From assembly GCF_001431415.1 (NCBI RefSeq), contig NZ_LDJI01000027.1, forward strand, positions 62,001-126,000: a stretch of DNA of 64,000 nt, in the 5' to 3' direction. Numbering within the stretch: position 1 is the stretch's first letter; every line of letters starts with the position of its first letter. Under the pieces are notes generated by a model. That model had not been told where the DNA came from and did no database searches. It saw nothing but the letters and a program-made list of their open reading frames with translations. Position numbers and translations under genes: made by a program. Origin of the DNA: Stenotrophomonas humi. GTDB lineage: Bacteria; Pseudomonadota; Gammaproteobacteria; Xanthomonadales; Xanthomonadaceae. This document shows positions 15,239 to 40,514 of this stretch, one piece after another.

Positions 15239-15251
15239 CAATGAAGTGGAA

Positions 15252-17472: not shown

Positions 17473-17485
17473 GAGTTTTACCCGT

Positions 17486-17527
17486 TCCCAACCCTCCCTT
17501 TGCCTGCGGCGAAGGAGAGGAGGGGGA
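17486..17527. repeat. Degenerate copy of the dispersed hairpin repeat
   Basis: CCCAACCCTCCCTTTGCCTG followed by GCGGCGAAGGAGAGGAGGGG looks like a decayed version of the CCCCAACCCCTCTCCC element at 9104 and 12196. Confidence 0.4.
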
Positions 17528-17529
17528 GT

Positions 17530-17557
17530 AAAAAAGAACGCCCCGATTGGGGCGTTC
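17530..17557 (-). terminator. Rho-independent terminator of acnA
   Basis: On the minus strand: GAACGCCCC, loop AATC, GGGGCGTTC, then six T. 30 nt after the acnA stop. On the + strand the same stem is followed by TTCGCTTC, so it may also help stop the convergent NUDIX transcript. Confidence 0.92.
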
Positions 17558-17587
17558 TTCGCTTCACTTCAAACTAGACGCGGCAAC

Positions 17588-20350
<2,763 letters not shown>

Positions 20351-20562
20351 ACGGCTTTGCTCCTTTACATACAGATGGCTTGCCGCGGCTGGGGTGCCGC
20401 GCGGGCTTTCCGGGGCCAGTGCCCCTTGCATGAATGCCTGTCGAGTATGGACGAAGCCTTCGTGGCCGGGGCACGGCTGCAGCGGACATTTTAGGCAACG
20501 GCTTGTTGCGCCCATGTAACGGCGTGCGGGCCGGGAAGGCCCGCACGGTGGTCAGCGGCGGG

Positions 20563-20602
20563 TTGGGGTATGCCGGTGAAGGTATGTATAATTCGTACAT
20601 AC
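20563..20602 (+). promoter_or_regulatory. Promoter with palindromic operator of the toxin-antitoxin operon
   Basis: TTGGGG (20563-20568), 18-nt spacer, perfect -10 TATAAT (20587-20592). A perfect inverted repeat GTATGTA-N7-TACATAC spans 20582-20602 and covers the -10, as expected for an antitoxin (AbrB-type) that represses its own promoter. The antitoxin start codon is 16 nt further on. Confidence 0.75.
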
Positions 20603-20618
20603 TTTGCTGGAGGTCGTC

Positions 20619-20852
20619 ATGGAAGCCACCGTAGCTGAACGCGGGCAGATCACCCTGCCCAAGGCTGTACGCGACGCGCTGGGCCTGACCAAGGGCACGT
20701 TGTTGAAGGTCGAGCTGGACGGCAGCCGGATCATCCTGCGCAAGAGCGTGGATGACGCCATTTCCCGTGCGCGCGGCAAATTCGCGCTGGACGGCTTCGA
20801 CTCGGCCGAGCAGGCCGTGCGTACCGTCCGCGACGAGGTTGACGAAGCATGA
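20619..20852 (+). CDS. AbrB/MazE/SpoVT-family antitoxin (VapB-like)
   Basis: 77 residues from the ATG at 20619, preceded by GGAGG at a good distance. The N-terminal half is a swapped-hairpin AbrB domain: ATVAERGQITLPKAVRDALG followed by KGTLLKVELDGSRIILRK. The C-terminal half (ISRARGKFALDGFDSAEQAV) is the likely toxin-binding tail. Overlaps the toxin gene by 4 nt (ATGA), so translation is coupled. It should neutralise the PIN toxin and bind the palindrome upstream. Confidence 0.9.
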   Translation: MEATVAERGQITLPKAVRDALGLTKGTLLKVELDGSRIILRKSVDDAISRARGKFALDGFDSAEQAVRTVRDEVDEA

Positions 20853-21247
20853 TTGCCGTCGACTCCCCGGTCCTGATCGAGCTGCTCAGCGACGGCCCGC
20901 GTGCCGACGCGGTGGAAGCCTGCCTGCGGCAGGCGCTGGTCAGCGGACGGGTGGTCGTGTGCGGCACCACCCTGGCCGAGGTCTGCGCCTCGCTGCGTGG
21001 CGGCGCCGAAGTACAGGAAGCACTGGAAGAAATGGGCGTCCATTTCAATCCACTGGAGGCCAAATCCGCACTGCGTGCAGGCGAAATGCATCGCCGCCAT
21101 CGGCAGCGCAGCGGTGAAACCCGCCGCATCGACGATTTCATGGTCGGCGCCCACGCACTGCTGCAGTGCGACGGCCTGATCACCTGGAACGACACGTTTT
21201 ATCGCGACTACTTCAAGGGCCTGAAGCTGATCGTGCCGCAAGCCTGA
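20849..21247 (+). CDS. PIN-domain ribonuclease toxin (VapC-like)
   Basis: 132 residues. PIN-fold: first acidic residue in MIAVDSPVLIELL (Asp5), a middle Glu in TTLAEVCASL, then RIDDFMVGAHALL and ITWNDTFYRDYF with the last acidic cluster. VapC toxins are Mg2+-dependent RNases that cleave tRNA or rRNA. The start codon overlaps the antitoxin stop. The pair is inserted between the two aconitase genes, which is not a usual location. It ends 38 nt before acnB without a visible terminator, so read-through into acnB is possible. Confidence 0.9.
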   Translation: MIAVDSPVLIELLSDGPRADAVEACLRQALVSGRVVVCGTTLAEVCASLRGGAEVQEALEEMGVHFNPLEAKSALRAGEMHRRHRQRSGETRRIDDFMVGAHALLQCDGLITWNDTFYRDYFKGLKLIVPQA

Positions 21248-21285
21248 GCCCATCCATTCTCAAACCGTAATACCCGGGAGTTGTC

Positions 21286-23877
21286 ATGTTGGAAGCCTAC
21301 CGCCACCACGTAGCTGAGCGCGCCGCGCTTGGCATCCCGCCGTTGCCGCTGACCGCACAGCAGACGGCCGACGTCATCGAGCTGCTGAAGAATCCGCCCG
21401 CCGGTGAGGCCGAGTTCCTGCTCGACCTGATCACCCACCGCGTGCCGGCTGGCGTCGATGACGCTGCCAAGGTCAAGGCTTCGTACCTGGCCGCCATCGC
21501 CTTCGGCAGCGAGAAGAGCGCGCTGATCAGCCGTGAGCGCGCCACTGAACTGCTGGGCACCATGCTCGGCGGTTACAACGTCGCCCCGCTGATCCAGTTG
21601 CTGGACGACGCAGACGTCGGCGCCATCGCCGCCAATGGCCTGAAGCACACCCTGCTGGTGTTCGACGCCTTCCACGACGTGCAGGAAAAGGCCAAGGCCG
21701 GCAACGCCAACGCACAGGGCGTGCTGCAGAGCTGGGCCGATGCCGAGTGGTTCACCAGCAAGCCGGAAGTGCCGCAGAGCCTGACCATCACCGTGTTCAA
21801 GGTGCCGGGCGAAACCAATACCGACGACCTGTCGCCGGCACCGGATGCCACCACCCGCCCGGACATTCCGCTGCACGCGCTGGCGATGCTGAAGAACAAG
21901 CGTCCTGACGCGCCGTTCGTGCCGGAAGAAGATGGCAAGCGCGGCCCGATCCAGGAAATCCTGTCGCTGAAGGACAAGGGCCACCTGGTCGCCTACGTCG
22001 GCGACGTGGTCGGTACCGGCTCCAGCCGCAAGTCCGCCACCAACTCGGTGCTGTGGTTCACCGGTGAAGACATCCCCTTCATCCCGAACAAGCGCTTCGG
22101 CGGCGTGTGCCTGGGTTCCAAGATCGCCCCGATCTTCTACAACACCATGGAAGACGCCGGCGCGCTCCCGATCGAACTGGACGTGTCGAAGATGGAGCAC
22201 GGCGATGTCGTCGAGCTGCGTCCGTACGACGGCAAGGCGCTGAAGAACGGTGAAGTGATCGCCGAGTTCCAGGTCAAGAGCGACGTGCTGTTCGACGAAG
22301 TGCGTGCCGGTGGCCGTATTCCGCTGATCATCGGCCGTGGCCTGACCGCCAAGGCGCGTGAAGCGCTGGGCCTGCCGGTGACCGACCTGTTCCGTCTGCC
22401 GGTGCAGCCGGCCGATACCGGCAAGGGCTACTCGCTGGCCCAGAAGATGGTCGGCCGCGCCTGTGGCTTGCCGGAAGGCAAGGGCATGCGCCCGGGCACC
22501 TACTGCGAACCGAAGATGACCTCGGTGGGTTCGCAGGACACCACCGGCCCGATGACCCGTGACGAGCTGAAGGACCTGGCCTGCCTGGGCTTCTCGGCCG
22601 ACCTGGTGATGCAGTCGTTCTGCCACACCGCTGCCTACCCGAAGCCGGTGGACGTGAAGACCCACCACACCCTGCCGGAGTTCATCTCCACCCGTGGCGG
22701 CGTGTCGCTGCGTCCGGGCGATGGCGTGATCCACAGCTGGCTCAACCGCATGCTGCTGCCGGACACCGTCGGCACCGGTGGTGACTCGCACACCCGTTTC
22801 CCGGTGGGCATTTCGTTCCCGGCCGGTTCGGGCCTGGTCGCCTTCGCCGCTGCCACCGGCGTCATGCCGCTGGACATGCCGGAGTCGGTGCTGGTGCGCT
22901 TCAAGGGCAAGATGCAGCCGGGCGTGACCCTGCGTGATCTGGTCAACGCGATTCCGCTGTACGCGATCAAGTCCGGTCTGCTGACCGTGGCCAAGGCGGG
23001 CAAGAAGAACATCTTCTCCGGCCGCATCCTCGAAATCGAAGGTCTGCCGGACCTGAAGGTCGAGCAGGCGTTCGAACTGTCCGATGCCTCGGCCGAGCGT
23101 TCGGCCGCCGGTTGCTCGGTGCACCTGAACAAGGAGCCGATCATCGAGTACCTCACCAGCAACATCACGCTGCTGAAGTGGATGATCGCAGAGGGCTACC
23201 AGGACGCCCGTTCGCTGGCCCGCCGCATCGAGAAGATGGAAGCATGGCTGGCCAACCCGGAACTGCTGCAGGGCGATGCCGACGCCGAATACGCCGCCGT
23301 CATCGAGATCGACCTGGCCGACATTCATGAGCCGATCGTGGCCTGCCCGAACGACCCGGACGACGTGAAGACGCTGTCTGAAGTTGCCGGCGCCAAGATC
23401 GACGAAGTGTTCATCGGTTCGTGCATGACCAACATCGGTCACTTCCGTGCCGCTGCGAAGCTGCTGGAAGGCAAGCGCGACATCCCGACCCGTCTGTGGG
23501 TGGCCCCGCCGACCAAGATGGATGCCTCCGAGCTGACCAAGGAAGGCGTGTACGGCACCTTCGGCGCTGCTGGCGCACGCATGGAAATGCCGGGCTGCTC
23601 GCTGTGCATGGGCAACCAGGCGCAGATCCGCGAAGGCTCCACCGCGATGTCGACCTCGACCCGTAACTTCCCCAACCGTCTGGGCCGCAACACCAACGTG
23701 TACCTGGGTTCGGCCGAACTGGCCGCGATCTGTTCGCGTCTGGGTCGCATCCCGACCAAGGAAGAGTACATGGCCGACGTTGGCGTGCTCGATGCCGCTG
23801 GCAGCGAGATCTACCGCTACATGAACTTCGACCAGATTGCCGACTACAAGGACGTGGCCGATTCGGTCAATGCCTGA
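21286..23877 (+). CDS. acnB: Aconitate hydratase B
   Basis: 863 residues from the ATG at 21286 with GGGAG upstream. AcnB layout: N-terminal HEAT-like domain ([20 protein letters not shown]), swivelling domain, then the iron-sulfur catalytic domains. Cluster ligands are Cys713 ([13 protein letters not shown]), Cys771 and Cys774 ([11 protein letters not shown]). [19 protein letters not shown] is also typical. AcnB is the main TCA-cycle aconitase in exponential growth; in other bacteria the iron-free form binds mRNA. Length is normal. Confidence 0.97.
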
Positions 23878-23907
23878 GTCTGATCTGAGCGATAAGTTCT
23901 GAAGGAA

Positions 23908-23937
23908 GAACCCCGGTCAAAGCCGGGGTTCTTTTTT
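23908..23937 (+). terminator. Rho-independent terminator of acnB
   Basis: GAACCCCGG, loop TCAAAG, CCGGGGTTC, then six T; 30 nt after the stop codon. Confidence 0.94.
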
Positions 23938-23981
23938 GTTCCGCGAACGGCAACCGGTGTGCCGTGGGGGGGCAGAACCAA

Positions 23982-25223
23982 TCAACGCTCCCGAAACGCT
24001 TCGCGGGCCTTGAATATCGGCTTGAGCAGGTACTCCAGTACGGTCTTCTCACCGGTGCGGATTTCCACCGAGGCAACCATGCCTGGAATGATCGGCAGCT
24101 CCTTGCCTCCCGCCTGCAGTGCACTCCTCTCAGTCAACACAAGCACGCGATAGTAGGTGTCATCCGGGCGGCCGGATGCGGCTTTCTGGTCGTCCTTCAG
24201 CGTGTCCGGACTGATGTGTTCGACCTTGCCGGTCAACCCACCATAGATGGCGTAGTCATAGGCGGTGACCTTGACCGTTGCCGGTAGGCCGGGACGCAGA
24301 AAGGCGACGTCCTTCGGACGGATCTTTCCTTCCACCAGCAGTTGGTCTTCCAGTGGCACGATTTCCAGAATGTGCTCACCGGGCTGGATGACCCCGCCGA
24401 TGGTATTGACCCGTACGTTCTTCACCGTACCGCGGACGGGCGCGTTGATCGTCGTGCGCTCGACCACGTCGGCACGACCGACCAGGTTTTCATTGGTCTG
24501 GGAAAGTTCCATCTCCAGCTTGGCCAGCTCTGAGTTCGCATCGGCCCTGTAGCGGTTCTGCCGTTCGACCACCTGCGACTTGATGTCGTTGGCCTGGCGC
24601 CGCATGCGCAGCAGTTCAACATCGGAAAGCAGGCCCTTGGCGGCGAGCGGCTCGGCCAGGTTGATCTCGCGCATGGACAAGGCATAACTGCGTTCCAGCG
24701 CAGCAACGCTTTCCATCAGGGCGCGCCGCCGGGCATTGTAGGCCCGGGTCTCGCTCTCTACTTCTTCTGGAGCGCTGCTTACCTGCTCGTCAAATTGCAG
24801 TGGCTCACCATAGGCTTCAGCGCGCAGGCGGGAGATGGCGGCCTTGAGGGAAATGACCTTGCTGAGCGCTTCGCGATAGCTGGCATTGGCGCGGGTTGGG
24901 TCGATCTTCAGCAACACCTGGCCTGCGTCGACCACATCGCCTTCCCGAACATTCATTTCGGCGAGAATTCCCCCCTCCAGGCTCTGGATGACCTGCTCGC
25001 GGCTCTTGGAGATGATCTTGGCTTCGCCCTGCGTGATCTCCTCGACGCGCGCGATCGATGCCCAGATCAACCCGGCGCAGAGCACTGCCGCGATCATGTA
25101 CAACACCAGGCGCGAACCGGGAGTGGTTTGTGCGAGCAGGGATTCCTGTACATCGTTCATGAACGCAGCATCGCTCGCGTTGATGGCGCTGGCATCGTGG
25201 TTTCGCCTGAACCAACCGAACAT
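23982..25223 (-). CDS. Type I secretion membrane-fusion protein (HlyD/LapC-like)
   Basis: 413 residues. A cytoplasmic N-terminus of about 40 residues, one transmembrane helix (LVLYMIAAVLCAGLIWASIA), a lipoyl/barrel half (EGGILAEMNVREGDVVDAGQVLLKID), a long coiled-coil hairpin (about residues 115-250) and the returning barrel (INAPVRGTVKNVRVNTIGG, PEDQLLVEGKI-like). This is the periplasmic adaptor joining the inner-membrane ABC exporter to a TolC-type channel. The start overlaps the exporter stop (TAATG), so the two are one translationally coupled operon. Confidence 0.93.
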   Translation of the reverse strand: MFGWFRRNHDASAINASDAAFMNDVQESLLAQTTPGSRLVLYMIAAVLCAGLIWASIARVEEITQGEAKIISKSREQVIQSLEGGILAEMNVREGDVVDAGQVLLKIDPTRANASYREALSKVISLKAAISRLRAEAYGEPLQFDEQVSSAPEEVESETRAYNARRRALMESVAALERSYALSMREINLAEPLAAKGLLSDVELLRMRRQANDIKSQVVERQNRYRADANSELAKLEMELSQTNENLVGRADVVERTTINAPVRGTVKNVRVNTIGGVIQPGEHILEIVPLEDQLLVEGKIRPKDVAFLRPGLPATVKVTAYDYAIYGGLTGKVEHISPDTLKDDQKAASGRPDDTYYRVLVLTERSALQAGGKELPIIPGMVASVEIRTGEKTVLEYLLKPIFKAREAFRER

Positions 25224-27514
25224 TACCGTGCCTCCTTGGCGGTCACGCTCGTGCGTTGCAGGCGCATGCCCGGGGGCCGAGCGGGCCTTCTGCTTTCTTC
25301 GTTCGCGCTTTCTTGCGCGCCATTGCCGCCCGCAAGCGCCGCGAGAACGGACTCCTTGGGGCCATCGGCAACGATCTTTCCGCCATCAACCACGATGATT
25401 CGATCCACCAGGCTGAGTACCGAAGGGCGATGGGTGACCACGACCAGTGTCTGCCCATCCATTGCGCGCTTCAGGTGCCCAAGGAAGATGGCTTCGGTCT
25501 GGGAATCCATCGCGCTGGTGGGTTCGTCCATCAGCAGCAGCTTTGGACGGCTCAACAGCGTACGCGCCAGGGAAATCAGCTGGCGCTGTCCGCCGGAGAC
25601 ACCGTCGCCCATTTCACCTATCGGCAGATTGATGCCGCGGGGGTGCGCACCGGCAATATGATCCAGGCCGGTCAGTCGCAGTACCCGCAGGAACTCCTCG
25701 GCGGTTGCTTCCGGCTTGCCGAGCATCACGTTCTCGCGCAGCGTGCCGTAGAACAAGCGTGCATCCTGCGAGACGAAACCGACGGTTCTGCGCCAGTCCG
25801 CAGGGTCAACCTGGTTGACATCCAGGCCGTCGCTGAACATCTGCCCGTCAACCGGCGCGTATAGGCGCGACATGACACGCAGCAGGGTGGATTTTCCACT
25901 GCCGATGCGGCCGAGAATCGCAACGCGTTCGCCGGGGTTGATGGTCAGGTTGATGCCCGTCAACACCGGTGGGTTGGGCTGCATGGGGGGGGCCGGATAG
26001 GCAAAGCCCACCCCCTTCAACGTCAGCTGGCCGGTAAGCGTCGGATTGGGGAGGTAGTCGCGCTCCACGTCACGATCCACCGGCAGTTCCATCAGTCGAT
26101 TCAAGGAGCTCAATGCGGCCTTGGCTTGCTGGAAGCGTACGGCCAGGCCGATGACCTGCCCCAGTGGTGCAGTGGCACGACCTGCCAGCATGACCGTGCC
26201 TATCAACGCGCCCATCGTCATGGTGCCGTCACTGATGAGATACACCCCGGTGATCACCAGTGCCACGGTCTGCAGCTGCTGGAGCAGGGTGACGGTGCCT
26301 GTGGCGGCACTGGACAGTCGCTTTGATTTCATCGAGGTGGCTGACTGCAGTGCACTGAAGTGTTCCCAGCGGCGTTGCATGTGTGCCTGGCCGCCGGTGG
26401 CTTTCAATGTCTCCAGGCCTTCGATGGACTCCACCAGGACGCCCTGCTTCAACGAAGACTCACGCAGGTTCTCCTGCATGACACGGGCCAAAGGCCATTG
26501 GATGGAAATGGAGATGATCAGGATCAATGGCAGGACCAGTAGCGGTACCCAGCCGAGCGGACCACCGATGAAGAAGATGACCGCGACGAACAGCAGCACG
26601 AACGGAAGATCGGCAAGCGCAGCCAACGTCGCGGAGGACGCAAAGTCGCGAACCGATTCAAACTCACGCAGCTGGTTGGCGAAGCTGCCGGATGAGGCGG
26701 GCTTGTGCTCCATCTGTACGGAAAGCGCCTGCCGGAACAGCATGGCGCCAAGCACCAGGTCAGCTTTCTTGCCGGCGACGTCCAGTAGATGGGCGCGTAC
26801 AAAGCGGATGATGGCCTCAAACACCATCGCCACGATCACGCCGATTCCCAGAGACCACAAGGTGACAAACGCCTGGTTGGGTACGACGCGGTCGTAGACG
26901 TTCATGGTGAAGAAGATGCTGGCAAGCGCAAGCACGTTGGCCACAACCGATGCGATGGCGGCGCTGCGGTAGTAACGACGGTAGCGCCAGAGCGTGCTGA
27001 GCAGCCAGTGACCGGTGGGTGCGGGGAGCATCTCGCCAGCACGATTGTCCGTCTGGGCACGTGGCTTCACCAGAATGGCGTAGCCGGCGTACTGTGCATC
27101 CATCTCGTCCTGTGAAAGATCAACGGCTTCCTTCGAGACCTCTGGAAGAATGACAGAGTAGCGCAACTGACGCTTGTTCTCACTGTCACGCACTTCGGTG
27201 CGGGCAACAAGAATGCAGCCACCACGACCATTCCGCAGCAGGATCATGGGCATTACTTGTGCAGGCAGGTTGCGGAGGCTGCGCTTCACCAGTCCGCCGG
27301 TCATCCCTGCATTCTGCAGTGCGGAGAGCGCGAGCGTTGGGGTAAGCAGCCCGGCATGTGGAAGTCCGGCGAGCAGCGCGTCGGTACTGCGATGCGTGTC
27401 GTAGTGATCGCATATCCAGGACACGCTTTGCAACAGCGTGTCGTCGATGCTGGTGCTGTCATCGGCGATCATCGCAGTTTCGTCTGCGCTGCTTTCGGTA
27501 GTGGCGGGGGTCAT
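25223..27514 (-). CDS. Type I secretion ABC transporter, LapB-like
   Basis: 763 residues. Order: an N-terminal C39-peptidase-like domain without the usual catalytic Cys motif (about 1-150), six-helix transmembrane domain (about 185-460) and ATPase domain with Walker A (LGRIGSGKST, about residue 535), signature VSGGQRQ (about 638), Walker B LLLMDEPTSAMD (about 658) and H-loop VVTHRPS. Loss of peptidase residues is usual in RTX-adhesin exporters of the LapB/HlyB type, which recognise a C-terminal uncleaved signal. No adhesin or RTX protein is encoded nearby in this window, so the cargo is unknown. Divergent from a broken TolC-like gene. Confidence 0.92.
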   Translation of the reverse strand: MTPATTESSADETAMIADDSTSIDDTLLQSVSWICDHYDTHRSTDALLAGLPHAGLLTPTLALSALQNAGMTGGLVKRSLRNLPAQVMPMILLRNGRGGCILVARTEVRDSENKRQLRYSVILPEVSKEAVDLSQDEMDAQYAGYAILVKPRAQTDNRAGEMLPAPTGHWLLSTLWRYRRYYRSAAIASVVANVLALASIFFTMNVYDRVVPNQAFVTLWSLGIGVIVAMVFEAIIRFVRAHLLDVAGKKADLVLGAMLFRQALSVQMEHKPASSGSFANQLREFESVRDFASSATLAALADLPFVLLFVAVIFFIGGPLGWVPLLVLPLILIISISIQWPLARVMQENLRESSLKQGVLVESIEGLETLKATGGQAHMQRRWEHFSALQSATSMKSKRLSSAATGTVTLLQQLQTVALVITGVYLISDGTMTMGALIGTVMLAGRATAPLGQVIGLAVRFQQAKAALSSLNRLMELPVDRDVERDYLPNPTLTGQLTLKGVGFAYPAPPMQPNPPVLTGINLTINPGERVAILGRIGSGKSTLLRVMSRLYAPVDGQMFSDGLDVNQVDPADWRRTVGFVSQDARLFYGTLRENVMLGKPEATAEEFLRVLRLTGLDHIAGAHPRGINLPIGEMGDGVSGGQRQLISLARTLLSRPKLLLMDEPTSAMDSQTEAIFLGHLKRAMDGQTLVVVTHRPSVLSLVDRIIVVDGGKIVADGPKESVLAALAGGNGAQESANEESRRPARPPGMRLQRTSVTAKEAR

Positions 27515-28082
27515 GACAGGTTCCTGCGAGGACCGCTTTCATAAAGTCGGATTTGGATGGCGATAGGCATGCGGAAGCCATCATGTTGAGAGACAGGAAT
27601 ATTGGGGCCGGCGTCCAGATCAGGGAATAAGACCTGTCTCAAAAACGCGTGGGCTGATTCGGAGTTGTCCGCGCGAAGTGTTGGAGTGGTCTTCGGATGG
27701 GCTGGGCTTCGATGGGAGGCTGCCTACGTGACGGTCTAGGACATGTCTCATGTACTTTTCGGAACAGCGATCCTAGTCTTCGCCTCTGCTTGAAGATGCG
27801 GGGAGATGACTCGTCACGCGTATTCCCCACGCCTGTTTTTTTTTGCGAATTTCCTTGGTCTGCCCTGGCTCAAGTCGGGGGAGGCCTGTGCGCGCGGATG
27901 TCCATGTTGTGGATGGAAGCACGCACATCGAGGCGGTGGGTCGACCTTTTCCTTGTCCCGGCGGTGCGCATCGGGAACGGTTGATTTCTGCAGCTTCAGA
28001 ACGACGAACCGTGCAGTGAATCGTGCGCCGCGAAATGAAATCCCCCTTCAGTTCCGTGTCGAGGGGCGTCCAGAGGTCGTAT
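27515..28082. other. Long divergent intergenic region of the secretion locus
   Basis: About 570 nt between the exporter operon and the tolC-like gene, with no protein-like frame. It holds an 8-bp palindrome GACATGTC (27740-27747) and an inverted repeat CTAGGA (27736-27741) / TCCTAG (27771-27776) around it, plus a nine-T run near 27834-27844. These could be regulator sites for a divergent promoter region, or leftovers of a deleted gene; the sequence alone does not decide. Confidence 0.4.
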
Positions 28083-29600
28083 ATGTCAGTTTCTATTTCA
28101 AATCAGATGCGCTGTTTCGGTGCTTCGTCGCGCAGATCGTTTCCATCTGCATCTGTGTTGGCCTTGGCATGCTTGGTGTCGCTTGGCGTTGACGCTCATG
28201 CCGAAGACGAGATCCTCAAATTCGAGCGGGTGAGTCCGCTCGCATCTGCCAATGTGGTTCCGAAAGCGGTTTCCCGTGATGACGCTGAGGTACTCGCCAA
28301 ACGGCTCATTCAGGCGCGAGAGTCCTCATCCGCGCAGATGATCCAGTCGGTGCGCGATAGCCTCGCTCCCTTGCCGTTGCCTCGGCCTGCTGTTCCGGTG
28401 CTTGAATTCGAGAAGCTGGGCGATGTGAAGGAGATTGTGTCGGATGTGCGTCCGCTGCCGATCACGCAGGGGGCGACAACCAATGCATCCGCTCCGCATA
28501 TCAGGCAGATGTCCGGTTTGTCAGGGGCGGCCATTGATCGCTCGCTTCCGGCGGAGATCATCGGACCCTCGGGGCAATCAATGCCCACCGATCGTCAGTT
28601 GCGTGACATCTTCCTGCGCGTCGTTGAAGCGGCTGCGGGGCGCAGCCCCTCCGTAGCACGGGCCTTGGCTGAGCGCTCGGCATCCGAAGCGGATGTGGCT
28701 GAAGCTCGAGGGCAGCGCTATCCGCAGGTTGATATAGGAGCGCGCAGTCAGATGGTGGAGTTCGGTTCGAACAGTCGCGGCAGCAGCGGTGAGCCATCGT
28801 TGAGTCTGGACGTCAGGACACCGATCTTCGACTGGGGTCGTATTCGGAAGACGATTGACGCACGCTCGCAGTTGGCCAGTGCGGCCGACTGGGGCTTCGA
28901 GGCGGAGTTGGAATCTTCGGCATTCGATGTCACATCGAATCTGGTTGAATTGGGTAAGCAGCGCATCATTGTCGATATCAGCCAACAGTATGTGGATCGC
29001 ATGAGCGATCTGGTGAAGATGCTCGAGGGTATCGTCGCTGTGGATACCGGCCGCATCAGTGAGTTGACCCAGGCGCGAGCGCGCCTGTTGCAGGCAGAGG
29101 CCTCGCGCAGCACCGCGGACACACGTGCGCGTGATATCGAGATCAATCTGCGACGCATGGTTGGCGACAGGCCGCTGCCAACCCTGCCGACCTCACGGTA
29201 CTGGGACATTCGCCTGCCTGAGTTGAAATGGTTGCTGGCCGAGGCGGTCAATCATCCCGTGATGCGCCAGGCTCAGGCGCAGGCTTCTTCGGCCGATCTG
29301 CAGGCCGATGTGATGAAGTCTTCATCATTGCCTCAGCTCAACTGGGTGGTGGGCAAGGTAACTGGCGAGGATTCGTTCGGGCGCGAGCCTGCATGGCAGA
29401 CTGGTTTGACTGTCTCGTGAAGTGCATTCCGCGGCGGTTCGGCGCGGGCATCACAGCAAGCTGCGCGTGAGCGTGCTTCCGCAGGCTGGAAGGCCGCTGA
29501 GCAGCAGGCGCTGGACCTGGAGTTCCGCATTCGTGCTGCCAATCACGATGCCAGTGCATTGATCGATCGCGCCGAGCTTTATCGTGGGCTGGCTGCCGCG
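28083..29600 (+). pseudogene. TolC-family outer-membrane channel (LapE-like), disrupted
   Basis: From the ATG at 28083 (AGAGG upstream) an intact frame of 445 codons encodes a signal peptide (SVLALACLVSLGVDAHA), an N-terminal extension and a TolC-like helical region (ELTQARARLLQAEASRSTADT, RDIEINLRRMVGDRPLPTLP). It stops at TGA 29418-29420 inside a conserved region: the next in-frame codons (SAFRGGSARASQQAARERAS, later ALDLEFRIRAANHDASALI) are clearly more TolC sequence, and TGA replaces what is normally a Trp codon (VSW-SAFRGGS). TolC similarity runs on to about 29600 and then ends abruptly in a sensor kinase in the same frame, so the last 60-70 residues are missing. The outer-membrane part of this secretion system is therefore probably non-functional here. 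Confidence 0.85.
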
Positions 29601-32600
29601 CCACCCAGCTTCTCGCCTGTGGAGATACTGAGCGGGGACTCCCACTACGAAGGCGTCACCGCCGACGTGTTGGGTGCGGTCAGCAGAATGTTGAACATGG
29701 ATGTGCGCATAGTGAGGTTCCCTTCCCGTGCCGCCGCATTGGATGCGCTCGAGGAAGGGCGCGTGGATGTCGTGGGAAGTTCCAATACCTATGAACTTGG
29801 TAGTCACAACGTCGAGCTGACCCGAAGCTATCTTCGCGATGAGCCAGCTCTGTACGTCCGCAAGACCGAGACCCGGATGATGCCGCAGCGATTGACCGGG
29901 TTGCGGGTGGCGATGACAGAAGATTATCTGCCGCAGGCGCCGCTGAACGCGCTTTTTCCCGGTGCGGTGATCGACACGTATGCATCGCGTGAGCAAGCCC
30001 TGTCGGCGTTGGCATTCGGCAGGGCGGACCTGTACCTGGGGGATGCCGTATCCAGCAACTACCTGATCAATCTCAACTATTTCAACTATGTGCGCATCTA
30101 CCAGGTGCTCGACGTTCCAACGGGTGGCTTTGCGTTTGCGGTACACGCCGATGCGGAAAGGTTGAAGTCCATCCTGAACTCGGCGCTGACCTCGGTGCGG
30201 GGCTATCATTCCGGCGAGATTCTGAAGCGCTGGTCGGGGGGCGGGAGCGTCGCTTCAAGCGACCGTGTCGTGCTCACTGATCAGGAGCAACGCTGGATTG
30301 ATCAGAATCCTGTGGTTCGCTTTGCGGTGAGTAACGATACTGCGCCGTTATCGTACTTCGATGCGGATGGACGGTTCAGCGGTATCAGTGCGGATGTGCT
30401 GAGGGCAGTTTCTGTACGTACTGGTCTGGAGTTCAAACCGACCAAAGCCGATCATGTCGGAGGACAGCTGGATGCATTGGATCAGCATGATGCGGATCTG
30501 ACGCTGCTGATCCCGACGACAATGCGTGAGGATCAGTTCGGCTTCTCGCGTCCGTTCGTGCATACGGCATTTGCCATCATTACCCGTGACAAGCCGGGTG
30601 AGCCCAAAGACGTGCTGTCCCTGCGTGGAAAGCGAATCGCGCTGCCCGCCAAGCACGCCTTGCGCGAACTATTGCAGCCTGCGTGGGCGTATCGCTTCAT
30701 CGAATCGGAGGGCATGGCAGAGTCCCTTGATATGGTGGCCCATGGCGAAGCTGACGCGACGATGGCACTCCTCCCTATCGCGCAGTACTACACCTCAACG
30801 CTTCATGAGGGTGTATTGAAAGTGGCCAATGTCGTGGAGGACACGCCAACGGGACTTGCGTTTGCTTCCCGCAAGGGTGATGTCGAGCTGGCGTCGATTC
30901 TGCAGAAGGCACTGCTGCAGATACCTCCTGACGAAATCGACATATTCCAGAACCGATGGCGGCCGAAATCAGATGTCGCCAAAAGTGCGTGGGTTGACTA
31001 TCGCAGTTTGATCTACAAAGTTGCCGGTATTGCCTTTCTACTCATCCTTGTGTCGCTCGCGTGGAACCTGCATATCCGTACGCAGTACAAACGCCGACAA
31101 CAGGCGGAGGAGGCGTTGGGCGAGCAGCTGAATTTCATGGAGTCGTTGATCAATGGCACGCCGCACCCCATCTATGTGAGGGACTGCGAGGCACGGATGG
31201 TTACCTGCAACAGTAACTACCTGGTGGCCTTCGGTGCCAGCCGCGAATCGGTGATCGGGAAGACCGCGCTGGAAGGTGTGAAGCTGGATCGCCAGGAGGC
31301 GTTGCAGTTTCACAACGATTACCTGTGGGTGATCAGGAACGGAAAGCCGTTGGAAGTCGACCGGACACTGCACCTTCCTGGGCGGATACTCAGCGTTTAC
31401 CACTGGATTCACCCCTACTACGACGCGCACAGGCAGATGAAGGGGGTGATCTGCGGCTGGATCGACGTGAGCGATCGCCGCCAGTTGATGGAGGATCTGC
31501 GAACGGCGGTGGATGCTGCGGATCAGAGCAGTCGAGCGAAGACAACCTTCCTTGCGACCATGAGTCATGAGATTCGTACGCCGATGAGCGCAGTGATCGG
31601 CATGCTTGAGCTGGCGATGATGCATGCTGCAAAGGGACGATTCGACAAGTCTTCCATAGAGGTCGCTTATGACTCGGCACGGGGCCTTCTCGAGCTGATC
31701 GGTGACATTCTGGATGTCGTGCGCATTGAGTCGGGCCATTCAAGCTTGAGTCCACGACGGGCAAATCTGCGTGACATCATCGAGTCAGTCGTACGTGTAT
31801 TCGATGGATTGGCGCGGCAGAAGTCGCTGACGCTGAGTCTGCAGATGGATGGGGTCGCTGACCATGATGTTCTGGTCGATCCAATGCGCTTGAAGCAGGT
31901 GTTGTCAAACCTCGTGGGGAACGCCATCAAGTTCACGGACGCTGGCGGGGTGAAGGTCCATGTTGAAGGCAGGCCGCTTTCCGATGGTCGGATGCGGATA
32001 CGCCTTGTTGTCGAGGACTCGGGCATCGGAATTCTTGAGGACGATCTGCAAGGATTGTTCGAGCCGTTTGCGCAAGCAGATCATGGTCGCATCTCACGTG
32101 GCGGAACAGGGCTTGGTTTGCCGATATGCAAGTCGCTGTGTGAGTTGATGGGCGGAAACATCGTGGTTAGCAGCGTGAAAGGAGAAGGTACCCGGGTCAC
32201 GCTGGAGATCCCCTTCAACGTTCTTCCTGACGTGGGGGAGCCGTCTTCGGTTCATCAGGAGGAAGTGGCGCAGGAGCATCCCGCCATGCGGATCCTGGTG
32301 GTGGACGATCAACAAGCAAACCGTGTGCTGCTCACCGAGCAGCTGAGGCTCTTTGGGCAGACCGTGTACAGCGCGGAGAATGGCGAAGAAGGACTGCAGC
32401 TGTGGAGGCAGAATGCGATTGATGTGATCATCACCGACTGCAACATGCCGGTGATGAGCGGCTACGAGATGGCCCGAGCCATTCGTCAGGCGGAGGATGA
32501 CAGTGCGATGATGCCGTGCGCGATCATCGGCTTCACCGCGAACGCACAGCCAGAAGAGAAGATGAAATGCAGGAACGCCGGCATGGACGACTGCCTGTTC

Positions 32601-33047
32601 AAACCTGTCGGTTTGAAGGCGCTGTCGCGATTGCTGATGTCGTTGGCAGGCATGTCCAGGGGATACGGCGCGGCACCGCTCGTCGAGGGTGATGGCAGCA
32701 TCGCATCTGTTCTACGCGAGCTTGATGGCGGCGATCTCAGCATACGCAGGATGCTGTTGGAGGAGGCGCGCCAAGACTACGTGGATGACCTTTCCCAGTT
32801 GGGCGTGCAACGGACCTGCGTCGATCCACCTGCATTGGCACGGCTTGTTCATCGCGTAAAGGGCGGCGCGCAGGTTCTACAGGCAAAAGGCGTTGTGGTC
32901 GCGTGCATGGAGGTGGAAAGACTATGCGATGCCGAGCATATGGATCATGCGCGGATCATCGCTGCAATCGAGCGGGTTGAACAGGAACTGGCATTGCTGA
33001 TCAGCCAGGTGGATGCATTTCGAGGAGCTGCTGGAAGCGTTGCATGA
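29601..33047 (+). pseudogene. BvgS/EvgS-like hybrid sensor histidine kinase, N-terminus lost
   Basis: The frame is open from codon 29421 through 33047. Domain order: SBP_bac_3 (Venus flytrap) 1 lacking its first strand and any signal peptide, SBP_bac_3 domain 2, one transmembrane helix (VAGIAFLLILVSLAW, near 31030), PAS, HisKA (ATMSHEIRTPM, His codon 31566), HATPase (NLVGNAIKFTD, EDSGIGI, GTGLGLPICK), receiver (ITDCNMPVMSGYEMA, Asp codon 32436) and HPt (LVHRVKGGAQ, His codon 32850). All phosphorelay residues are intact. Only late starts are available (TTG 29559, ATG 29691), none giving a signal peptide, so the sensor domains should not reach the periplasm. No cognate BvgA/EvgA-type response regulator gene is in the window. 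Looks like a recent deletion fusion with the tolC-like gene. Confidence 0.8.
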
Positions 33048-33339
33048 ATGGTCGTGGTCGGCGAAGTCGTGGTTGATCTGTCACAGGCCATCAAAGTCGA
33101 GGCTGACAAAGCTTCCGCATCAAGGTGATTGCGATGCGGAAACAGCAATAGGGCCAGCGGTACATTGGAAGCATCGCCAATGGATACGATCTTCGCGATG
33201 ACTTGCCTTGTTCGGACTCGTGCCAGGAAGCTGCGTGATCAACGAAGTGAGGAGCTGGCTGGCGAGATCGGAAACTTCGATGTTTTGGCGCAATCCATTG
33301 GGATCGAGCGTGCGCTGAGCATGGCCTGCGGGGTGGCAC
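33048..33339. other. Intergenic region at the accessory/chemotaxis boundary
   Basis: About 290 nt between the convergent kinase remnant and cheB. No terminator with a T-run and no convincing gene; short frames across it read into the cheB antisense. Confidence 0.4.
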
Positions 33340-34395
33340 TCAGGCCCGCGCCAGCGCAAGTAGGCGCTCTGCAATTCTTTCCAGAGGTAGTACTTCGTCG
33401 ACTGCGCCGAGGCGAACGGCACTGCCCGGCATGCCCCAGACGACGCTGCTGGCCTCGTCCTGGGCGAGCGTGGTCGCACCGGCCTGCTTCATGTCGAGCA
33501 GTCCACGTGCGCCGTCCTCGCCCATGCCGGTGAGGATGGCGCCGATGGCATTGGCGCCAGCGCTCTGGGCAACGGAACGGAACAGTACATCGACTGCCGG
33601 CTTATGCAGATTGACCGGTGCGGTGTCATCCACGCGGCAGCGCCAACGTGCGCCATCGCGGATGATGCGCAGATGACGGCCGCCGGATGGCAGGTAGGCG
33701 TGTCCGGGAAGTATGGCTTCGCCATCGGTGGCCTCGCGTACGGACATTGGCGAATGCTTGTCCAGGCGCTCGGCAAAGGCGGTGCTGAAGCTGGCCGGCA
33801 GGTGCTGGGTCAACACGATGGCCGGCGAATCGGCGGGCATCATTTCCAGCACCACCCGCAGGGCTTCGGTACCACCGGCGGAAGCGCCGATGGCGATCAG
33901 CCGATCAGTGGTCCGGAAGCCGATGCTTGCCGGGGTGTTCGATGACAGGGCGGGGCGCCGCAGCGGTGAGGCGGAGGCTCGCACGCGAGAACGTGCGGCC
34001 ATCTTGACCTTGGCCCGGAGCTCTTCGGCGTAGACCTCGAGTCCACGGGCGACATCGAGCTTGGGCTTGGCCACGAAATCCACCGCGCCCAATGCCAGAG
34101 CCTGCAGGGTGGTGTCGGCACCGCGCTCGGTGAGCGAAGAGACCATCACCACCGGCAACGGGTGCAGGCGCATCAGGTTCTCGAGGAATGCCAGGCCGTC
34201 CATGCGCGGCATTTCCACGTCCAACGTAAGCACGTCAGGATTGAGGCGTTTGATCTTCTCGCGTGCCAGGAACGGATCGGCCGCGGTACCGACGACTTCG
34301 ATGCCGGGATCGGCGGCGAGGATCTCTGAAAGCACCTGGCGCACCAACGCGGAATCGTCGACCACCAGGACACGGCAAGGGGGCTGCAGCATCAT
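33340..34395 (-). CDS. cheB: Chemotaxis protein-glutamate methylesterase CheB
   Basis: 351 residues from the ATG at 34395, which overlaps the cheD stop by 4 nt (ATGA); the frame is open further upstream but inside cheD. N-terminal receiver domain with Asp59 ([11 protein letters not shown]), linker, then methylesterase domain with the catalytic Ser ([11 protein letters not shown]), His ([10 protein letters not shown]) and Asp ([13 protein letters not shown]). It removes methyl groups from, and deamidates, receptor glutamyl/glutaminyl sites when phosphorylated by CheA. Last gene of a cheR-cheD-cheB run. Confidence 0.96.
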
Positions 34396-34991
34396 TCGAA
34401 CAGTTCCACGCCACCGCTGACCGGGGTACGCGACAGTTTGGCGCGGACCGCCGATTCGGCCGCCACCACTTCGGCATCGTGTGCGTGCGGCAGACGTTGC
34501 ACCACCACGCGGCCGGTGATCGGAAAGAACCAGACCTTGCGCGGATGGATGCCGCACAGGTCTTCTGCGATCACCGGAATGTGTTCGGCCTGCAGGTAGT
34601 GGCGGACGAACTCGGCATTGCGGGTGCCCACCGGATTGCTGGTAAATCCCTTGAGCACGTTGGCGCCGCCAAACACCTTGGCTTCCAGGCGCTTGCGGTG
34701 GGCGCCGCGCTTGAGCAGGTCATTGATCAGCAGCTCCATGGCGTAGCTGCCGTAGCGCGCGGGCGCGCCGTCACCGATGTTGCCTTCCGGCAGAAGGAAG
34801 TGATTCATGCCGCCAATGCCGAGGATCGGGTCGCGGATGCAGGCTGCCACGCAGGAGCCCAGGGTCGTGGTCAACGCGGTGTCGTCATCCACCACCAGGT
34901 ACTGCGTGGGCAGCAGCTTGGCGGCAGTCGTCTGGAAACGACTGTCGTGATAGCGCATCACATCATCGGGGTATTTGTGCGTGGGTTTCAT
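34392..34991 (-). CDS. cheD: Chemoreceptor glutamine deamidase CheD
   Basis: 199 residues. Catalytic Cys47 in TLGSCVAAC and His64 in GGMNHFLLP, as in the CheD papain-like deamidase family; also [19 protein letters not shown] and KVFGGANVL. CheD deamidates receptor glutamines and in some species assists CheC/CheX phosphatases; none of those is in this window. Both ends overlap neighbours by ATGA (cheR upstream, cheB downstream), giving tight coupling. Confidence 0.95.
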
Positions 34992-35833
34992 GCGCCGCTC
35001 CGGCGGGTGCGACGGTACAAGGTGCGGCCGCAGGGCTGGATCAGGTCAGCAGCGTGCAGGTAGTTTTCAGAGTGGCCCGTGTAAAGCAGGCCGTCATCGC
35101 CCATGTGCTCGACCAGCCGCGACAGGATGCCGCGCTGGGTGGGCTTGTCAAAATAGATCATCACGTTGCGGCAGAACAGGGCGTCGAACGGACCGCTGAC
35201 CTCGTAGCGGTTTGCCAGCAGATTGAGCGGGCGGAACTCGATGAGTGATCGCAACGCCGGTACCACGCGGCATTTGCCTTCGTTGGGGCCGGTGCCGCGC
35301 TGGAAATAGCGGCGCTTCAGCTCAAGGTCGAGACCGTTGATGCGCTCCGTGGAATAGACGCCCTGGCTGGCCGTGGCCAGCACCTGGGTATCCACGTCGG
35401 TGGCGAGAATGCGTACCGGCGGTGTCATCGTGCCGAACGTCTCGCAGGCGGTGATCGCCAGCGAGTAGGGCTCTTCCCCGGTGGAGGCGGCACAGGACCA
35501 CAACTTCAGCGGTGCCTTGTGCGCGCGCAGCAGCAGCTCCTCATGCAGCTTGTCGAAATGGTGCGGCTCGCGGAAGAACGAGGTGAGGTTGGTGGTCAGG
35601 GCGTTGGTGAACGCCTGCCATTCCTCGCCGCCGTGCTGCTCCAGCTGGTCGAGGTAATCCTTGAAGCTGCGCAGTCCCAAGGTGCGCAGCCGCCGTGACA
35701 GCCGGCCATACACCATGTCGCGCTTGGCAGGCACCAGGGCGATGCCGGCGCGAGCATGGATCAGTTCGCAGACGCGTTTGAAGTCGCGGTCATTGAACTC
35801 GAAGTCACGCTCGCCGTGGCTGATGCTGGACAT
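34988..35833 (-). CDS. cheR: Chemotaxis protein methyltransferase CheR
   Basis: 281 residues. N-terminal helical domain ([16 protein letters not shown]), SAM-binding domain ([30 protein letters not shown]) and the conserved [14 protein letters not shown]. CheR methylates receptor glutamates with S-adenosylmethionine. Three receptors in this window end in DWQEF, the type of C-terminal pentapeptide (xWxxF) to which CheR and CheB dock. It starts 17 nt after the stop of a receptor gene, so it is probably in that operon. Confidence 0.96.
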
Positions 35834-35850
35834 GGTGGTCTGTGCTCCGC

Positions 35851-38016
35851 TCAGCTGGCCAGCGCAAAGGGAGCGGGCATGCTGACGCCGCCCCCTGCAT
35901 GACCCTGCTCCAGACGGAACACGGCCACGGCCTGGTCAAGCTGATTGGCCTGTTCTTCCAGCGAGCGTGCGGCTGCGGTGGCTTCCTCCACCAGCGCGGC
36001 ATTCTGCTGGGTGGTTTCATCCATCTGCATGACGGTCTGGTTGACCTGCTCGATGCCCGCGCTTTGTTCCTGCGAGGCGGCGGAGATTTCGGCCATGATG
36101 TCGGTGACGCGCTGCACGGATGCCACGATCTCGCCCATGGTGGTGCCGGCCTGCTGCACCAGCTGCGAGCCCTCGGCGACCTTGCCGACCGAGTCTTCGA
36201 TCAGGCCCTTGATCTCCTTGGCGGCACCGGCCGAGCGCTGCGCCAGGGTGCGTACTTCCGAGGCAACCACGGCAAAACCGCGGCCCTGCTCACCCGCACG
36301 CGCGGCCTCGACGGCAGCGTTCAGCGCCAGGATGTTGGTCTGGAAGGCGATGCCATCGATCACCGAGATGATGTCGGCGATGCGGCGCGAGGATTGCTCG
36401 ATCTGGGTCATGGTGGTGACCACTTCATCCACCACCGTGCCGCCGCGTGATGCCACGCTGGCCGCGCCGATGGCGAGCTGGTTGGCCTGGCGCGCGGAGT
36501 CGGCGTTCTGGCGCACGGTGGAGGTCAGCTCTTCCATCGATGCGGCGGTTTCTTCCAGGTTGGCGGCCTGCATTTCCGTGCGACGCGACAGATCGCTGTT
36601 GCCGGTGGCGATCTCGCCGGCGGCAAGGGTGATGCTGTCTGCCGATTGCTGGATGCGCGAGACGATGCTCGACAGCTGGGTGATGGTGCTGTTGGCGGCG
36701 TCACGCATGGTTGCGAAAACACCCTGGAACTCGCCTCGCATGGTGACCGTCAGGTCGCCGTCGGCCAGGGCGCGCAACAAGCTGGAGATCTGCCCGAGGT
36801 TCTCATCACTGGTGCGCATCATCGTGTTCAGTGCGCGTACCATTTCCAGGAAATCATGCTCGAAGCGTGCTTCATCGCCGCGTTCGCTGAAGTCACCGGC
36901 AGCCGCCGCAGCGCCCAGTCGCTTGATTTCACCATTGATGGCCGCCAGGTTCTGTTTGATCGCAGCCATCGTGTCGGTGATGACGCGCTTCTCGCCAGGC
37001 AGTACCGGCATGTCCGGGGTCAGGTCGCCAATGGCGTAGCGCTTGGCGATCTCGATGACCTGCATTTTGACGTCGATGTGGTTGCGGACCAGTGTGTTGG
37101 TCTCGGCCACCATCACGCTGTAGTCACCTGGGAAGGCAGAGGCGTCGATCTGGTAACTGATGATGCCGGCGTCATGCTGGCGCGCCATTTCGTTCTGTGC
37201 GGCGATCACCGCGCGCAGCTGTTCCTGCATGCGCTGCATGCTGGCCAGCAGCTGGCCGGTTTCATCACGACTGGGGGTGTCGATGGTGTTGTTCATGCGC
37301 CCCTGGGCAATGGCGTTTGCCACCGCGGTGGCATTGCGCAGCGGCAGCACGATGCGATTGCCGATGATCCAGCTCAGGCCGAACACCAGCAGCACCAGAA
37401 CGCCGCCAGCGGCGGCCATGATGGCGGTGAACCTGAGGGCCTGCGCCTGCACGTCGTCCATGTAGACGCCACTGGAGATAACCCAGTTCCAAGGCTTGTA
37501 CATGCCCGCATAGGCCACTTTCCCGACCGGCGCATCGTGGCCGGGCTTGGCCCAGGTATAGGCCACGTAGCCGCCGCCCTTGCGGGCAGCTTCTACCTGG
37601 TCGTAGTACAGGCGCACACCATCGTCACCACGGAAATCCTTCATGTTCTTGCCGACCAGGTCGGTGCGGAACGGGTGCATCAACACCACATAGTTTGTGT
37701 TGTAGATGTTGAAGTAGTTGACATCGTTGGTTGATCGCATGCCCCGCAGGCTGTCGATTGCATGTTGCTGGGCGACCTCGAGGGAAATCTCGCCGGCATC
37801 CACGCGCCTGGCGTAGCGGTCCAGCACGCCGTAGCTCAGTTCCACCTGCTCCTGCAATGCGGCCTTGCGGGTTTCGTACAGATCCACGTACTGCATGCGT
37901 GCGGCGATCACCGACAGGGCGATCACGCCAATGGCGATCAGGGCGGTAAGCAGGTTGAGCTTGCGCCTGACGGAGATGTTGCTGATGTAGTTCGACCAGA
38001 GACGATAGAGGTTCAT
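35851..38016 (-). CDS. Methyl-accepting chemotaxis protein with sCache-type sensor and poly-HAMP linker
   Basis: 721 residues from the ATG at 38016. Layout: TM1 ([17 protein letters not shown]), periplasmic sCache_2-like sensor (about 45-190, with [16 protein letters not shown] and [14 protein letters not shown]), TM2 ([18 protein letters not shown]), a chain of HAMP-like units (about 210-470) and the signalling domain with the hairpin tip [20 protein letters not shown]. Unlike the other three receptors it ends PAPFALAS, with no DWQEF pentapeptide. sCache receptors often sense small organic acids; ligand unknown. A good sigma-28 promoter lies 44-70 nt upstream, and cheR-cheD-cheB follow. Confidence 0.92.
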
Positions 38017-38059
38017 GGGGGCTGCGCTGTCGAAGCGCTGGACGAGGAGGGTTACGGCT

Positions 38060-38086
38060 ATATCGGCCGTGCGGGAGCCAAGTTGA
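38060..38086 (-). promoter_or_regulatory. Sigma-28 (FliA) promoter of the sCache receptor-cheRDB operon
   Basis: On the minus strand TCAA, 15-nt spacer, GCCGATAT: a near-perfect match to the flagellar sigma factor consensus (TAAA-N15-GCCGATAA). Confidence 0.8.
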
Positions 38087-38094
38087 GGCCGTAG

Positions 38095-38126
38095 AAAGCA
38101 CAACCCCGGCCGGAGCCGGGGTTGTG
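38095..38126 (-). terminator. Terminator after the PAS-containing receptor gene
   Basis: A 12-bp perfect stem CACAACCCCGGC / GCCGGGGTTGTG with a 4-nt loop, directly after the stop codon of the receptor; on the minus strand followed by CTTTC, a short U-tract. Confidence 0.75.
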
Positions 38127-38132
38127 GGTGAA

Positions 38133-40514
38133 TCAGAACTCCTGCCAATCCGCGTCCGGCAGCTCGGCGACCGCAACCCTGCCAGGGTTGCGTCGGCGCG
38201 GCGCCGGTGCAGGTGGCTCCATCGCCTTGCGCGGCGCGGGTGTCCGCAACGCTGCGACGGATGACGCGACAGGTGCAGCCTCGAATGCCGTGTCATCGAG
38301 CTGGAACACCGAGACCGCATGCGCCAGTTGTCCGGCCTGTTCTTCCATGGCACGGGCCGCTGCGGTGGCTTCTTCCACCAATGCAGCGTTCTGCTGGGTG
38401 GTTTCATCCATCTGCACGACGGTCTGGTTGACCTGTTCGATGCCGGCGGACTGTTCCTGCGACGCGGCCGAGATCTCCGCCATGATGTCGGTGACGCGCT
38501 GCACGGAGGCGACGATCTCGCCCATGGTGCTGCCGGCCTTCTTCACCAGCGCCGAACCGTCCGCGACCTTGCTGACCGAATCGTCGATCAGGCCCTTGAT
38601 CTCCTTGGCGGCACCGGCCGAGCGCTGCGCCAGGGTACGTACCTCGGAGGCAACCACGGCAAAGCCGCGACCCTGTTCACCGGCTCGGGCTGCTTCCACT
38701 GCCGCGTTCAGTGCCAGGATGTTGGTCTGGAACGCGATGCCATCGATCACCGAAATGATCTCGGCGATCTTCTTGGACGAGTGCTCGATGCCGGTCATGG
38801 TGGACACGACCTGCTGCACGACGTCGCCGCCCTGCGAGGCTACCGAAGCGGCGCCGATGGCCAGCTGATTGGCCTGGCGTGCCGATTCGGCGTTCTGGCG
38901 CACGGTGGAGGTCAGCTCCTCCATCGAAGCGGCAGTCTCTTCCAGGTTGGCGGCCTGCTGCTCGGTACGACGGGACAGGTCATTGTTGCCGCTGGCGATC
39001 TCGGTGGCAGCGGAGTTGATCGCCGTCGAGGAGTGCTTGATGCGGCCGACGATGTCGGTCAGTTGATCCGCCGTGGCGTTGGCATCGTCACGCATGGTGG
39101 CGAAAACGCCCTGGTAGTCGCCATGCATGCGCACGGTGAGATCGCCGCGCGACAGTGCCGACAGCAGCGCCGAGATCTGTTCCAGGCTGCTGGCGTTGGC
39201 GTCGAGCAGGGTGTTGAGCTGTGCGGCCAGCTGCAGGAAGAAGCCGTCCTTGTCGTCGGTGCCGATGCGGCCGCTCAGGTCGCCGGCGGCTGCAGCGTCG
39301 ATGACGCGTGCCACTTCCTTCTCCACCTGTGCCTCGGTGGTGCGATCACGCCATTCCACGACATGACCCACGGCAACGCCCTGATCGTCGCGGATGACCG
39401 AGATGGTCTGCGCGAATTCTGCATCGCCGTAACGCATCTCACGCTTGGCGACACCGGTCTTGTCCAGCACTTCCAGGATTTTCACATCCACTTCGCCACC
39501 ATGTTCCAGCGCGGTGACGGGCTGCCCGACCAGCGGCTTGCTGCTGTCGTAGTGAGTGAGCCCGGCGGCGATGTCGTCCTGGTAGCTGGTGAGCGTATCG
39601 AGCAGGGCGCGGTTGGCGTAGACGATCTCAAGCTGCGAGTTGGTCAGGTAGACGCCGGTGGATGAATAGTCCAGCGCGGTACGGATGCGCAGGTTCTCGC
39701 TGGCCACGATCTGCTCGGTCTCGATGCGCTCGCGCAGGTCGCGCTGCATGCGTTGCATGGCGCGGAGCAGGTCGCCCACTTCATCGGCGCGGGTGACATC
39801 GATCTGGCCGTCGAGCTTGCCGCCGGCAACCTCGTTGGCCACGTTGACGGCGCCACGCATGGAGTTGACCAGCGAACGCGCAAACAGCCATACAAGCAGC
39901 AGCCCGGCGCTGACGCCTACCAGTACGGCGATCACGGTCAGTACCGCCGACGCCGAGTAGGTATCGGCCGCCTGCTTGGCCGAAGCCTGGGCACGGGCAT
40001 TGTCGTTGGCCGCCAGTGCCTGCAGTGCAGAGTAGGCCTTGCGATGCAGGTTGCGAGTTTCGCCGACGAAGGTGTCGATGGCGTCATCCGGCAGATCCAG
40101 CTCCAGCATCTCGGTGACCGCATCGTAGGAGGCCAGGGTTGCTTCCCAGTCACGGACAAAGGTCTCGAACAGTTTTTTCTGTTCGGGGTTGTCGATCAAC
40201 TTGGGGTAGCTGGCAATGGTCTCGGCGATATGTTGGCGCAGCTCTGCCGAGCGTGTCTTGGCATCGGCTTTGACGTCGTCACTGGCGCGTACCAGGCTCT
40301 GGTAGGACGTGTTGCGATACTCGCTGACCATGCCACTGAGCTCGCCGGTAGCACGCAGGCTGGGCATGCGATTGCTGGCAAGGTCGGTGGTGACATCGTT
40401 GAGTGAGTACAGCCCGCGATAGGCGACGACGCCCTGCAACAGCATCACAAACAGTACGACGCCGAAGGTAAGCATCAGCTTCGGCTTCAGTTTGAGCGAA
40501 TTGATCCACTGCAT
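38133..40514 (-). CDS. Methyl-accepting chemotaxis protein with 4HB sensor and PAS domain, DWQEF tail
   Basis: 793 residues from the ATG at 40514 (GGAG upstream). TM1 ([19 protein letters not shown]), four-helix-bundle periplasmic sensor (about 35-190), TM2 ([21 protein letters not shown]), HAMP, a cytoplasmic PAS domain (about 280-400, TSTGVYLTN-like start [20 protein letters not shown] and VEWRDRT), two more HAMP-like units, then the signalling domain. C-terminus DWQEF, a CheR/CheB docking pentapeptide. It follows a small secreted protein gene (88 nt) and should be transcribed from the same sigma-28 promoter at 41043-41069. Confidence 0.93.

Follow-up and report, generated by a model that had tools for sequence, protein, structure and literature searches.

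Probable scar of a large deletion joins a tolC-like gene to a BvgS/EvgS-like hybrid kinase gene in Stenotrophomonas humi

We analyzed a 64,000-nucleotide stretch of the Stenotrophomonas humi genome (contig NZ_LDJI01000027.1, positions 62,001 to 126,000; hereafter the window), in which a gene for a TolC-like outer membrane channel runs into a gene for a BvgS/EvgS-like hybrid sensor kinase. The first-pass annotation, made from the letters alone, held that the two frames are identical, and this proved correct: a single frame, interrupted by one internal stop, extends from the TolC-like start at 28083 to the kinase end at 33047. The front part of the channel gene (28083-29417, + strand, 445 codons) displayed 71% identity to TolC of the related genome G025 and, when its 445 codons were scanned, one Pfam OEP repeat (3.7e-21). 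It is followed by an in-frame TGA (29418-29420, + strand), which alignments failed to find in relatives G025, G113, G107 and G088. Behind this stop, tolC sequence continues in an unchanged frame from 29421 to 29591 (+ strand), reaching approximately residue 506 of the 576 in the G025 protein; homology to G025 ended at 29590-29591 by blastn and at residue 506 by tblastn. The resulting tolC stump lacks its last ~70 residues, corresponding to the end of the second OEP repeat. Against the NCBIfam model of the TolC family (TIGR01844, cut-off 225.15), the stump scored 81 bits and the whole G025 protein 145 bits, both below the cut-off. Because the protein missed this cut-off while passing that of Pfam OEP, we refer to the gene as TolC-like rather than as a strict TolC. 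Some 180 residues (window 28083-28620) precede its OEP domain, and a stretch of similar length is present in the G025 protein.

Domain scans and alignment with G025 placed the hybrid kinase at 29604-33047 (+ strand). Its Pfam domains, SBP_bac_3 (two stretches), PAS, HisKA, HATPase_c, Response_reg and Hpt, follow the BvgS/EvgS order of a periplasmic SBP_bac_3 sensor, then PAS, kinase, receiver and Hpt. As the first-pass annotation had noticed, the signal peptide and the first sensor strand are missing, together with the linker: kinase homology starts at G025 residue 69-74 with tolC sequence directly upstream, leaving no N-terminal export signal. With the EvgS equivalog model (cut-off 1995), the window kinase scored 422 bits and the G025 copy 456; judged by these scores, the window kinase is a relative of EvgS, not EvgS itself. 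Amino acid identity to G025 was 70% over 504 columns on the tolC side and 72% over 1147 columns on the kinase side, values that are not due to chance.

The deletion junction maps to 29588-29604 (+ strand) by blastn, tblastn and protein alignments, in agreement with the earlier claim that TolC similarity runs to about 29600 and gives way to the sensor domain. Kinase protein alignments begin at 29589 (G025 residue 69, local alignment), while at the DNA level, and clearly at the protein level (G025 residue 74), similarity starts at 29604; short similar sequence on either side and divergence from G025 obscure the precise breakpoint. A DNA search with window 29000-30200 matched 4 of 61 genomes, namely the S. 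humi genome itself, G025, and two others with short, weak matches. In G025 the match fell in two places, 754620-755210 (tolC side) and 781298-781836 (kinase side), and the positions matching the breakpoints are 26,071 bases apart.

The first-pass annotation had called for a comparison of the locus with relatives and had stated that TolC-family channels and such kinases are normally separate genes. This is what we observed in G025, G113 and G107, in each of which tolC, kinase, exporter and adaptor are whole and the former two stand apart. The G025 island occupies the same site, between acnB and cheB, and has an intact tolC (576 amino acids) and an intact kinase gene (1220 amino acids), separated by four giant adhesin genes (1768, 1737, 1546 and 1540 amino acids), two OmpA-like genes and a gene for a LuxR-type response regulator. 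Three of these four adhesins were scanned with Pfam and NCBIfam; each contained several bacterial Ig repeats, and two of the three contained VWA. The Blp2 model scored 1044 bits on the first adhesin (cut-off 750) and 351 and 329 bits, below cut-off, on two others. Gene order differs among islands: tolC stands beside the exporter in G025 and in the window, and after the adhesins, beside the OmpA genes, in G113 and G107. One of the two OmpA-like genes was found in G107. Adhesin-like sequence in G113 (L031/L032, joined stretch 16285-22556) is split among three frames (662, 334 and 1089 codons); the G113 adhesin may be broken within an otherwise whole island. Relatives of the tolC stump in named genomes and plasmids were confined to one Collimonas metagenome-assembled contig and one Pantoea record, respectively, neither of them informative.

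We consider it very likely that the acnB-cheB interval of the window holds the scar of one large deletion (~26 kb if the lost stretch resembled that of G025) in an island for type I secretion and giant adhesins; the deletion itself is taken to be real and is probably single. The first-pass annotation had proposed that a deletion removed the end of tolC, an intergenic part and the start of the kinase gene. The loss of both gene ends is borne out, but what lay between was not a short intergenic stretch; in the G025 order it comprises ~26 kb of adhesin, OmpA-like and regulator genes. One breakpoint would fall in the 3' part of tolC and the other in the 5' part of the kinase gene, joined in frame by chance (one in three), but the tolC stump is already terminated by the upstream in-frame TGA. 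Illegitimate recombination probably produced the deletion, which is likely to be recent relative to the split from G025. One deletion in an island like that of G025 explains the locus most simply, because the intergenic region between the ATP-binding cassette (ABC) exporter gene and tolC aligns with that of G025 (score 6.5, versus at most -41.5 in 50 shuffles) and because window 20001-40000, searched by tblastn with the island proteins, yielded no adhesin remnant. From its anatomy, the tolC stump would form no channel, the signal-less kinase would neither insert into the membrane nor sense, and the leftover ABC/HlyD pair would be an orphan without a local channel or cargo. The remnant locus most likely does not work, given that the channel end is lost, the kinase has no route to the membrane, and neither the island response regulator gene nor an adhesin of this kind remains.

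The 1,208 codons behind the TGA contain no stop codon, which suggests that the loss is recent or that the kinase part is still selected. Under neutral drift, zero stops bound the change at 0.075-0.091 substitutions per codon (95% bound), compared to ~3.5 estimated on the saturated window branch. Nonsynonymous to synonymous changes were counted by parsimony on the window and G025 branches, respectively, and compared by Fisher tests. The counts were similar for the kinase (32:78 and 18:43, p = 1.0), HlyD (8:36 and 5:30, p = 0.76), ABC (17:67 and 11:56, p = 0.67) and CheB (4:25 and 7:35, p = 1.0), while those for tolC differed (9:19 and 1:25, p = 0.012, one of five genes tested); AcnB gave 0:21 and 8:66 (no Fisher test). 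Codon models were fitted with a custom script that treats the outgroups as a polytomy, on branches that are saturated. For the kinase, a two-ratio fit gave omega of 0.104 in the window versus 0.055 elsewhere (p = 0.011), and a three-ratio fit gave about equal values of 0.086 for the window and 0.079 for G025. Opposite to the parsimony counts, the two-ratio fit for tolC gave a lower omega in the window (0.044 versus 0.100, p = 0.037); by part, p was 0.042 before the stop and 0.59 behind it (58 codons). Omega was likewise lower in the window for HlyD (0.026 versus 0.059, p = 0.010), with p = 0.16 for ABC and p = 0.15 for CheB. The picture is mixed, and omega tests do not separate recent loss from continued selection; with the branches saturated, these fits neither date the tolC stop and the deletion nor show which came first.

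An assembler could have dropped a repetitive adhesin region and joined the two unique flanks, and the missing genes are indeed repeat-rich and the assembly a draft of 91 contigs, albeit one listed as 100% complete. Unique sequence lost in this way should nevertheless have been assembled somewhere. The lost tolC end (70 residues) had no match in the S. humi genome, although the same query found G025, G113 and G107 at 100, 87 and 85%. Two OmpA-like queries from G025 found no close copy, only partial OmpA-domain matches at 29-38% identity, and one G025 adhesin used as query returned a single weak match (E 9.2e-4, 129 query residues). The best match to the island response regulator was 40% identical, and G025 itself has an equally good non-island counterpart (38%). 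Furthermore, the junction, near base 91,590 in a contig of 171,493 bases, falls within two coding sequences that share only a short similarity, and the junction region has no second match elsewhere in the genome, which holds one copy of the kinase. Finally, this site also holds no more than part of the island in G088 and G090, two genomes listed as single contigs. For these reasons, of the options left by the first-pass annotation, the dead remnant is favoured over the assembly join. On present sequence we judge assembly error an unlikely source of the junction, and its specific form, collapse of the adhesin repeats, very unlikely. Several points weigh against a single large deletion nonetheless. 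It is known from one assembly of one strain, and it may not be fixed in the species or, with low probability, may stem from the assembly. The lost kinase start, used as a query, had no match in the S. humi genome, but it had none in the kinase-bearing G113 and G107 either and is unusable as a test. Constraint is not clearly lost in the kinase remnant, as expected after a recent deletion but also for a fragment that is still selected. The ancestral order was taken from G025, and starting from an order like that of G113 and G107 the junction alone needs only ~3 kb. A ~3-kb deletion from a G113-like order combined with a separate loss of the adhesins is less likely, in that the window ABC-tolC intergenic region aligns with that of G025.

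The remaining alternatives grant the deletion a surviving product. Read-through of the TGA could yield an outer membrane channel/kinase chimera from the single frame with its one internal stop, and the parsimony counts show no relaxed constraint in the kinase part. Such a chimera would contain a channel without the end of its second OEP repeat and a kinase without a signal peptide, and instead of an uninterrupted frame conserved in relatives we found a stop at 29418 and separate genes in G025, G113 and G107. The stop, the truncated channel and the separation of the two genes in relatives led us to reject a functional fusion; expression of the chimera is extremely improbable, and the earlier opinion that it would hardly work is strengthened by the same features. 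Alternatively, the truncated kinase alone might be translated from an internal start (e.g. TTG 29559) and serve a sensor-less, constitutive role, its frame kept by selection. It retains all catalytic domains, has zero stops and an omega similar to that of G025, and G090 keeps a kinase at the site without other island genes. Against this stand two large periplasmic domains without an export signal and the loss of the island response regulator gene, and an open frame is just as expected after a recent deletion; we regard this role as quite unlikely. A broader variant is that the kinase outlives the secretion genes while the island is lost repeatedly by different deletions (whole in G090, the catalytic half in the window), in which case the kinase would have, or would have acquired, a role independent of the adhesins, with the signal-less window fragment perhaps still translated and selected. 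That, too, appears unlikely.

Among 91 same-genus genomes, that of S. humi included, five gave a kinase match (E <= 1e-150), the other four having frames of 1224-1255 codons, and ten gave an exporter match (E <= 1e-100), six at >= 66% identity and four at 39-40%. Thresholds this strict overlook short remnants, as in G004, which neither search picked up and whose remnants appeared only when its cheB neighbourhood was read. The cheB side was read in 16 of the 91 genomes (that of the window, G025, G113, G107, G088, G090 and ten more), among which the window, G088 and G004 carry scarred islands and G090 the kinase only. With acnB and cheB both in the stretch, tblastn (E <= 1e-4) found no island genes between them in G065, G016, G019, G024 and G086; nor was any island gene found in G020, G087, G061 and G030, where cheB was seen and acnB lay outside the stretch read. 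A more distant exporter occupies another place in G011. In G088 (L039/L040, joined stretch), the exporter (14261-16315) has an internal in-frame loss of ~113 codons, and adhesin and tolC fragments are fused in frame (22116-24026), with tolC ending just before cheB. Loss of the G088 tolC starts at residue ~511-513, only a few codons from the window breakpoint (~506), a near-coincidence that possibly reflects a breakpoint hotspot or chance. In G004 (L080, ~2822), the final portions of the kinase and exporter genes meet at their broken ends in opposite orientation, and an adhesin gene remains beside acnB. Between its acnB and cheB, G090 retains an intact kinase (L035/L036, joined stretch 16341-20081) that appears to have an N-terminal signal, and no other island genes; an adhesin relative lies elsewhere in its genome (C1 4,485,993-4,489,790). 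In a tree of a single gene, CheB, from 30 genomes (the best 30 of 89 matches), the window grouped with G025 and G004 (87/83, order open), G088 with G113 (100/97) and G090 with G107 (100/100). If the island was inherited vertically, these placements imply three or more separate losses; an initial step could be common to the window and G004, since the larger loss in G004 would have erased it. Taken together, the sites compared suggest that the acnB-cheB island seems to have decayed repeatedly in the clade, and such repeated loss suggests that it is costly or useful only in some niches.

The locus clearly represents gene decay and not a new kind of protein. Pseudogenes formed by large deletions with chance in-frame fusion are a known kind, and the present case resembles them in having breakpoints inside two genes, whole copies in relatives and several scars; nothing essential differs, the join being merely in frame. 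Among LapB-type adhesin islands, the Acinetobacter Bap/Blp2 and Salmonella SiiE/BapA systems are comparable; Blp2, SiiE and LssB are also names of models in our profile scan. The window shares with LssB/LapB-type islands an ABC transporter of the family and an HlyD adaptor, and G025 the bacterial-Ig-repeat adhesins, but the window has a broken channel and no adhesins. The G025 island further departs from them in combining VWA-bearing adhesins (2 of 3 scanned), OmpA-like proteins and an EvgS-like phosphorelay. The window kinase resembles BvgS/EvgS unorthodox kinases in its domains, and differs in its missing N-terminus and its score below the EvgS equivalog cut-off. Among the titles listed in literature searches, none concerned this locus. 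The locus illustrates loss of a large surface-adhesin system, with whole, half-lost and empty sites in close relatives, and automatic annotation could misread it as a working channel and sensor kinase.

Left of the fused frame are full-length frames for an LssB-type type I secretion permease/ATPase (25223-27514, - strand, 763 amino acids; TIGR03375 869 bits, cut-off 693.1; 83% identity to G025) and an HlyD-type periplasmic adaptor (23982-25223, - strand, 413 amino acids; TIGR01843 336 bits, cut-off 208.65; 90.6% identity to G025). Thus, two components of a complete type I secretion system are present by these models, while the local outer membrane channel is cut short by its in-frame stop and its end at ~residue 506 of 576, and an adhesin gene was lacking genome-wide when queried with one of the four G025 adhesins. 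Another OEP protein might stand in as the channel; a family search listed 14 OEP matches in the genome, without giving their identity to the window tolC. The island site is bounded on the left by acnB (aconitase B; 21286-23877, + strand), 97.8% identical to the G025 copy that flanks the whole island, and on the right by a cheB-like gene (33340-34395, - strand; 91% identity to G025), both flanks being collinear with G025.

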